A stretch of DNA of 41,621 bases from an uncultured Bacilli bacterium (GTDB taxonomy: Bacteria > Bacillota_I > Bacilli_A > RF39 > UBA660): positions 1-41,621 of the forward strand of contig CANQBF010000007.1 of assembly GCA_947588895.1 (NCBI GenBank). Direction: 5' to 3'. The notes beneath the pieces are model-generated. The model saw nothing but the letters and a program-made list of their open reading frames with translations. It had not been told where the DNA came from and made no database searches. A program made the position numbers and the translations under genes. Shown here one piece after another: positions 31,960 to 34,310 of this stretch. The number at the start of each line of letters is the position of its first letter. The first letter of the stretch is position 1.

Positions 31960-32035
31960 TACTTAAATTTAAAAAGTAGTACCTTATGTATTACTTTTTT
32001 TGTTAACTTATAAATTATAACTTTTCAACAAAATA

Positions 32036-32063
32036 TTGACACTCGGGGGGGGTATTACATAAT
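32036..32063 (+). promoter_or_regulatory. Predicted promoter with G8 homopolymer in the spacer (candidate phase-variable switch)
   Basis: TTGACA (32036-32041) - 16 bp spacer CTCGGGGGGGGTATTA containing G8 (32045-32052) - CATAAT (32058-32063). Confidence 0.65.
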
Positions 32064-32123
32064 TATCTTATAAATAAAAAATAAACATAAGTTATTAACA
32101 ACAAGATAGAAAAGGTTAGGATA

Positions 32124-34310
32124 ATGAAAAAAATAAGAGTGAAATATTTTGTAGTAGGAATGTTATTAATATTAGAAATAATATCATTAACATTAATGTA
32201 TAAAAGTAGTCATAATAAAGAAGTAGTATTAGATGAAGTAAAATTAAAAGACTTAATAAAAAATGATATGATATCGATAATGACAGATGAAACAGGAAAG
32301 GGAACATATACAGAATATACAAAAAGTAATACATTTCCAAATAAAAGTTATACATATAACTCAAGTAAAAGTCAATGTATAAATGAAAAAGGTAGTGTAG
32401 TAAATAATGTATTAACATTTGATGGAACAAAAGCAATATTAACATCGAATGAAGGAATGCATTGTACATTATATTTTGATAAAATAATTGGTCCATTAGG
32501 TACATTAAGAGAAAATGATGATGAAAACCAAATAACAGATGATTTAGTAGGAGGAATGTATCGATATCAAGGAACAGATGATGTCAATAATTACATATGT
32601 TTTGGAACAACTAAAAAAGATAAATGTACAAGTGGTACTGGTGAATATGGCGATGGAATAGACAAATATATGTACCGAATAATTGGAGTAACATCAGATG
32701 GAGAGTTAGCTTTAATAAAAGAAAGTGGTGCATGGTGGGATGCATCAATGGGTTCATATGATTGGGATGCTTCAATTTATGATAAAAATGTATGGGAGAT
32801 TTCTGACATATATGAAGATTTAAATGGGCTAAATGAAGAAGCTACGTGGAATAGATTCATAAATAGTAAAAACTATGATTATTTACAAAATGGAAGTATA
32901 TGGTTAGAAAGAATAAATGATCATACTTGGAAATATGGTGAAACAAAAGATTATGGAAATTACAATGGAGATACCATGTATGCAATAGAGAATGTCTTTA
33001 CGAATAGTGTTAAAGCTAAAATAGGATTACAATACATACATGATTATTATTATGCCTATCCAGGTGGTAATCCAGGAAGCCTAGATAATGCTAAAACGTC
33101 ATGGATATTTTTTAAAAACAATATAAATAATGGAGCACATGGGAGTGGTGATTTTTTCATAACTATGTATGGCTATCCTCCTGATTCTAGCACTTATGAA
33201 GCTTTGGCTGTAAATTCTAAGGGTCAAATGGTCAACGTTACCCCAAATGTATATGGTACTTTAGCACGTCCGGTATTTTATCTAAAGCCTGATACTGTAC
33301 TAAAATCAGGAAGTACAGGAAGTATAAACGATCCATACATAATCGATGGAATGGAATCATTAGGAGAATTTTGTGATGGACAAACAAATATGGGAACATG
33401 TATGACTAATAAGAAAAGTACAATAGAAAAAGTAAAAAATTTAACTCCAAATGAAGTAGGAGGAATGTATCGCTATCAAGGAACAGATGGAGTAAATAAT
33501 TGGATATGTTTTGGAGTGACTTATAATTGTGGTAGATATGAAGATTCAATAGATAGATATATGTACCGAATAATTGGAGTAACATCTAATGGTGAGTTAG
33601 CTTTAATAAAAGAAACAGGAATAAAGGAAAATCTAGCATCAATGGTTCAAACATCATTTCAATGGAATAATAAATATCGTGTAGATGAATCTGGATGCGG
33701 AAGTGATGGCTCAAAATGTACATGGCCATTATCAAGAATATACAATAGATTGAATGGATTATGTACATCAAGTAATGCTAATTGTACAGGAGAAGGAACA
33801 GGCTCAACTGGACAAACCAATATTTTTATAGGAAGTAATCATTATACTTATTTAAAAAGTGGAAGTACATGGTTAAATAAAATAGATGAAAATCATTCAT
33901 GGAAATACGGAGATACATCAACGTTTGGTATTTACAATGGAGATAATGCATATTCAATAGAAAGCAAATTTACAACGAGCATACAAGCTAAAATAGGATT
34001 AATGTATTTATATGATTATTTATATGCTTATCCAGGAGGAAATCCAGGAAATGCTAGCACGGCCAAAACATCATGGATAGACCTAAGCAAAGATGGAATT
34101 TCCGAAATATCCTCTGAATGGCTATTAAGTAGATATTATTATAGTGGTCGAGATATTATTGATTGCAATATTATCAAGGACGGGTATAATATTACCGATG
34201 AACTTAATGGTGGAATTTATGGTGTACGTCCAGTATTCTATCTAAAACCTGATGTCAAAATATCAAATGCTGCAGGTAGTAAAAATGATCCCTTTACAAT
34301 ATCAGATTAA
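32124..34310 (+). CDS. Membrane-anchored surface protein with two tandem homologous domains
   Basis: N-terminal TM VKYFVVGMLLILEIISLTLMY; GGMYRYQGTDDVNNYICFG...DKYMYRIIGVTSDGELALIKE and GGMYRYQGTDGVNNWICFG...DRYMYRIIGVTSNGELALIKE; each copy ends in RPVFYLKPD(T/V). SD aaaggttagga. Confidence 0.8.
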   Translation: MKKIRVKYFVVGMLLILEIISLTLMYKSSHNKEVVLDEVKLKDLIKNDMISIMTDETGKGTYTEYTKSNTFPNKSYTYNSSKSQCINEKGSVVNNVLTFDGTKAILTSNEGMHCTLYFDKIIGPLGTLRENDDENQITDDLVGGMYRYQGTDDVNNYICFGTTKKDKCTSGTGEYGDGIDKYMYRIIGVTSDGELALIKESGAWWDASMGSYDWDASIYDKNVWEISDIYEDLNGLNEEATWNRFINSKNYDYLQNGSIWLERINDHTWKYGETKDYGNYNGDTMYAIENVFTNSVKAKIGLQYIHDYYYAYPGGNPGSLDNAKTSWIFFKNNINNGAHGSGDFFITMYGYPPDSSTYEALAVNSKGQMVNVTPNVYGTLARPVFYLKPDTVLKSGSTGSINDPYIIDGMESLGEFCDGQTNMGTCMTNKKSTIEKVKNLTPNEVGGMYRYQGTDGVNNWICFGVTYNCGRYEDSIDRYMYRIIGVTSNGELALIKETGIKENLASMVQTSFQWNNKYRVDESGCGSDGSKCTWPLSRIYNRLNGLCTSSNANCTGEGTGSTGQTNIFIGSNHYTYLKSGSTWLNKIDENHSWKYGDTSTFGIYNGDNAYSIESKFTTSIQAKIGLMYLYDYLYAYPGGNPGNASTAKTSWIDLSKDGISEISSEWLLSRYYYSGRDIIDCNIIKDGYNITDELNGGIYGVRPVFYLKPDVKISNAAGSKNDPFTISD
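32547..34310 (+). repeat. Intragenic tandem duplication (offset 909 bp; copies start near 32547 and 33456)
   Basis: GTAGGAGGAATGTATCG(A/C)TATCAAGGAACAGATG at 32547 and 33456; ATATGTACCGAATAATTGGAGTAACATC in both copies. Confidence 0.85.

Follow-up and report, generated by a model that had tools for sequence, protein, structure and literature searches.

Transcriptional switching by a homopolymer in the promoter spacer has been described mainly for a handful of genes in host-adapted pathogens. In Mycoplasma hyorhinis, a poly-A homopolymer lies in the promoter region of the vlp lipoprotein genes, and surface families are switched one by one. In Neisseria, the homopolymer (poly-G in porA, poly-C in fetA) is located between the -35 and -10 boxes of a surface gene, and the resulting spacing sets transcription (PMC7864442, PMC5320596). 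Similarly, the poly-G tract of the tp0126 promoter of Treponema pallidum lies between the -35 and -10 boxes with an optimum of 17 nt, as in porA, while the tprL tract, which overlaps the -10 box, ranges from G7 to G11 in vivo (PMC7864442). In meningococcus, most homopolymers of at least 8 nt are variable (PMC5084427), and only 3 transcriptional phase-variable genes are listed for one gonococcus strain (PMC5320596). In the gut commensal Bifidobacterium breve, slippage of an intragenic G tract switches the surface structures formed by a sortase-pilus system, and its length distribution is shifted in the host (PMC9187656). A literature search for tract-promoter switching in RF39-like or gut Bacilli found no papers.

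Here, we describe a G tract promoter in a window of 41,621 nucleotides, which is contig C7 of the genome of an uncultured Bacilli bacterium. Like porA and fetA, this locus places a homopolymer between the -35 and -10 boxes of a surface gene; unlike in Neisseria, such promoters reach tens per genome, belong to a Bacilli lineage and always carry G on the non-template strand. The promoters of tp0126 and tprE/G/J/L are also poly-G promoters, there of putative outer-membrane proteins; however, T. pallidum is unrelated, has fewer such loci and, in tprL, has a tract that overlaps the -10 box. The vlp system resembles the present one in its small AT-rich genome and its surface-protein families but relies on poly-A, and B. 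breve shares the gut commensal lifestyle and the surface G tract, although its tract is intragenic and not in a promoter.

The window promoter and its gene

The window promoter (32036-32063, + strand) reads TTGACA-CTC-GGGGGGGG-TATTA-CATAAT and is of the sigma-70 type, with a 16-bp spacer, 60 bp 5' of a 728-aa ORF; it is presumably used by sigma-A and transcribed. Its -35 hexamer, TTGACA (32036..32041, +), retains the TTGAC found at most other tract promoters. The spacer CTC-G8-TATTA (32042..32057, +) contains the G8 tract (32045..32052, +), with G on the non-template strand. The -10 hexamer is CATAAT (32058..32063, +), where most paralogous copies of the same layout have TATAAT, and the stretch that follows, TATCTTATAAATA (32064..32079, +), is common to most paralogous tract promoters of the source genome. 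Just 5' of the promoter, a hairpin with a T-run (31966..32004, +), read from the sequence, probably terminates transcription of the GH31 gene upstream. Rfam returned no RNA element at the promoter locus. No other run of G or C in the window is as long as 6, the longest C run being 4, and 0.025 G/C runs of at least 8 are expected there under a first-order Markov model. The boxes, the 16-bp spacer, the lack of a comparable run elsewhere and the 17-bp spacers of the recA, 11401 and 14086 promoters had all been read correctly in the preliminary description, as had the identity of RecA.

The surface protein encoded by the gene downstream (32124..34310, +) carries a TM helix at its N-terminus (residues 4-30) and a domain of about 270 aa in two copies, in agreement with the membrane-anchored repeat protein described earlier. 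The AlphaFold model has a pLDDT of 81 for the whole protein and 90 for a single domain. Sequence searches of Pfam, NCBIfam and PDB with this protein gave no match. The DUF6273 profile (PF19789) did not match it at the curated cut-off; 8 of 45 relatives gave weak matches (best E 0.0014), and kinship with DUF6273 may be taken as a weak lead. In a Foldseek search with the single domain, the sole significant match was an IgA peptidase of Thomasclavelia ramosa (E 2e-6, TM 0.52); a protease reading was dropped, as the HExxH motif is absent despite this match. The family occurs in all 11 genomes searched, some of them without tract promoters, and most species searched have many paralogues.

G tracts in the source genome

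The source genome is a 1.1-Mb MAG of 81 contigs, 83% complete and with 26% GC. A pattern search counted 9 distinct G runs of at least 8, against 0.67 expected for G/C runs of this length (first-order Markov model), and 9/9 share the promoter context TTGAC..C-G8/9-TA..TA..AT. The preliminary description had called the G8 tract striking, which proved an understatement, given that every such run genome-wide has the same context. A tenth tract promoter (C27:13172) has G6 and is otherwise nearly identical to the other copies. Of the ten promoters, seven are situated no more than 300 nt from the end of a contig, where 4% would be expected (p=3e-8). They probably belong to repeats that break the assembly, and therefore the true number may exceed ten.

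The ordinary promoters of this genome show a spacer peak at 17 bp (7 observed vs 1.8 expected) and none at 16. One homologue of the surface-protein gene in the same genome, on C37, has a G-free 18-bp spacer, and another, in genome G013, has an ordinary G-free promoter with a 17-bp spacer. Since homologues are found with such spacers, the tract is an optional promoter module and not a necessity.

Occurrence in the genus

Within the genus, sites of the form TTGA..G>=7..TATA were found in 29 of 38 genomes, whereas a reversed control pattern gave 1 match across all 38. Single-genome tallies, which include a few chance sites, range from 3 to 47: 47 in G021, 39 in G017, 29 in G014, 27 in G010, 26 in G022, 25 in G024, 22 in G023, 20 in G015, 18 in G012 and 3 in G016. 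No tract promoters were found in 16 genomes from the family's other genera, which form part of a wider group of 396 genomes; apart from the source genome, this group gave only three single matches. The named genus members in the GTDB collection are MAGs named "uncultured Bacilli bacterium isolate Lapin-...", and this sample name points to the rabbit gut as their habitat. Of the 38 members, 33 have MutS, and loss of mismatch repair was rejected as a driver for the genus; MutS was not found in the source MAG, which is 83% complete.

Promoter layouts and spacing

In the main layout, the -35 box is followed by 2-3 nt, G8-9, 5 nt and the -10 box. The tract adjoins the -35 box in G014 (TTGACT-G8-TAATATTT-TATAAT) and in G018 (TTGACT-G8-TATCATTA-TATAAT), whereas in G002 it is preceded by 5 nt and followed by 3 nt (G8). 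In a further layout, found in G001, G004, G007, G009 and G019, 10 nt precede a G8-10 tract that adjoins the -10 box, giving spacers of 18-20 bp. The distance from the tract ranges from 0 to 10 nt to the -35 box and from 0 to 8 nt to the -10 box. Among 137 distinct sites in 30 genomes, 90 have G8, 33 G9, 6 G7, 5 G10 and 3 G6. The total spacer is 15-16 bp at 115 of 131 scorable sites, with a sample range of 14-19 bp.

Tract length is related to the rest of the spacer: G9 or longer occurs in 28 of 72 promoters with 7 fixed spacer nucleotides vs 2 of 49 with 8 (p=8e-6; this and the other p-values overstate independence, as sites within one species share descent). Longer tracts on shorter arms partially compensate toward 16 bp, which fits spacing sensitivity. 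Tract spacers are mostly 15-16 bp vs 17 bp in ordinary promoters, so most copies are one or two bases short, and one or two extra Gs would reach 17 bp. G8 dominates even where the resulting spacer is 15 bp.

Some tracts depart from these layouts. At G021 C12:2742 and C37:145 and at G005 C64:5779, the G tract runs straight into AGRCCGTCCGAYAA, with no -10 box; the same junction in two species perhaps reflects insertion or recombination at the tract. Another repeated G7/G8 tract, followed by AAATATCAAAAAGATAAAAAATA and varying in length, occurs in G010 (C23:14, C25:15784, C31:47), with no promoter match.

Length variation between copies

For copies in the same genome with identical 34-nt flanks, tract length differs in 42 of 158 pairs (27%), a variation between paralogous copies, with one consensus genome per species. 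The four copies of a tandem array in G004, with the same flanks, have G10, G9, G9 and G8. Several species are almost uniform in tract length, and nearly all copies in G010 have G8. Some species known for phase variation show a wider range of tract lengths, and the assembler may have homogenised the lengths in repeats. In a BLAST search for orthologous tract loci between species, the alignment extended to both sides for few pairs, not enough to date tract changes.

Target genes

An N-terminal TM-like segment was found in 60 of 64 distinct ORFs downstream of tract promoters vs 18 of 31 ORFs of the window (p=6e-5). The four exceptions are one GT2 glycosyltransferase, two WXG100-like proteins and one chance site. 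Judging from their sequences, the targets appear to be surface or surface-modifying proteins, nearly all anchored in the membrane N-terminally. A G9 promoter (L012:3506-4331, C31 of G000) lies 5' of a family-2 glycosyltransferase gene, with a spacer of 19 bp to TATAAT or 16 bp to TATTAT. On C4 of G007 (L048) and C4 of G016 (L049), tract promoters lie near small proteins that by eye resemble WXG100/ESAT-6 secreted proteins.

Probable phase variation and its alternatives

The G8 tract is probably a slippage-prone spacer by which the surface gene would be switched through phase variation (probability roughly 0.7). Slipped-strand mispairing, presumably ongoing within the population, would add or remove Gs in the tract; the number of Gs would set the -35/-10 distance, 16 bp at present, 17 bp with G9 and 15 bp with G7; and the changed distance would raise or lower transcription of the surface-protein gene, if expression depends on spacing as expected. 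Since the genome has at least ten such promoters, that of the window among them, and the genus hundreds, a large array of surface genes, each tunable on its own, could result. Switching of the porA/tp0126 type is strongly supported because the promoters form a genus-wide family, tract lengths differ at identical flanks and spacing is partially compensated. In fact, as at porA, fetA and tp0126, a homopolymer of at least about 8 nt lies between the -35 and -10 boxes, the observed lengths vary the spacing around the optimum and the targets are surface or surface-modifying proteins. A phase-variable promoter had already been proposed in the preliminary description; its spacer location, its argument from 16 versus 17 bp and its surface target hold, and the comparative data support it, while the near-uniform G8 of several species speaks against it. 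Three features fit less well: the strict G orientation, the predominance of G8 even in 15-bp spacers and the presence of MutS in most genus members. Slippage alone does not explain the orientation, which it does not require, and MutS should slow single-base slippage.

Under a second reading, which we regard as unlikely, the tract is a fixed element of a regulon, needed by a dedicated regulator or sigma factor or for a DNA structure, and is constrained in length. This agrees with the prevalence of G8 whatever the flank length, with the orientation (G always on the non-template strand; the poly-C form was found in 0/38 genus genomes) and with a ATCTTATA-like stretch kept after the -10 box in many species. 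On the other hand, the tract shifts by up to about 10 nt relative to the two boxes, G6-G10 are seen with near-identical flanks, homologous genes have tractless promoters, and longer tracts accompany shorter arms, as spacing sensitivity predicts. The near-constant total spacing at variable position, the length differences and the homologues lacking a tract speak against a fixed binding site.

It is less probable still that the tract is a passenger in a 5' cassette of an expanding surface family, dispersed, duplicated or gene-converted, with diversity arising through recombination between paralogues. Identical promoters with 5' segments do recur at C2 and C61 of the source genome, and both the clustering of sites at contig ends, as repeats cause, and the many paralogues fit such a cassette, which may act alongside slippage. 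However, the tract is shared by several distinct layouts and unrelated target genes, decay would be expected of a neutral G8 at 26% GC, and the partial spacing compensation is left unexplained.

Inversion of the promoter between inverted repeats is very improbable: a perfect 14-nt inverted repeat (31986-31999 / 32321-32334) flanks it, but a flip would break the gene, since one arm is part of the terminator-like hairpin while the other lies within the ORF. Where invertible promoters have flanking repeats in intergenic DNA together with a recombinase, a single 14-nt pair was found here in a check of the window locus, with about 0.06 such repeats expected by chance (base-composition estimate). 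A chance homopolymer or assembly artefact, conceivable for a MAG consensus, is refuted by the recurrence of the motif hundreds of times in independent assemblies and its absence from the family's other searched genera.

If phase variation is correct, the array of tens of surface genes per genome would be among the largest of its kind and would imply that a commensal is under strong diversifying selection, as from phage, immunity or glycans. More tentatively, up to dozens of independent G-tract switches could form a combinatorial surface coat, in which most promoters are 1-2 bases short and few proteins are strongly on in each cell; the G orientation might add a layer of regulator or strand-dependent transcription.

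Tract promoters outside the genus

IMG/VR viral contigs with the pattern have different flanks, and many have merely G6. A scan of GTDB also revealed tract promoters present in multiple copies in MAGs of chicken Faecalibacterium, with several of these promoters 5' of lipoprotein-like genes. Repeated promoter-spacer G tracts of about G9-G12 occur in Candidatus Ancillula (L149, L177, L236), in the rabbit Clostridia MAG Lapin-012__bin71 (L166, L205, L249) and in the Streptococcaceae MAG WREM01 (L165, L250). The tract promoters outside the genus look convergent, and those of Faecalibacterium, Clostridia and Ca. Ancillula suggest that the device may be common, though overlooked, among gut bacteria. 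The promoters of the Candidatus Faecalibacterium gallistercoris MAG DXBJ01 (L164, L169, L187, L226, L245), which read TTGACACC-Gn-TATGC-TATAAT with identical flanks, appear to be a case of the device that arose independently. Their five copies have G7, G8, G8, G8 and G10, and wherever the downstream gene can be read, it is lipoprotein-like.
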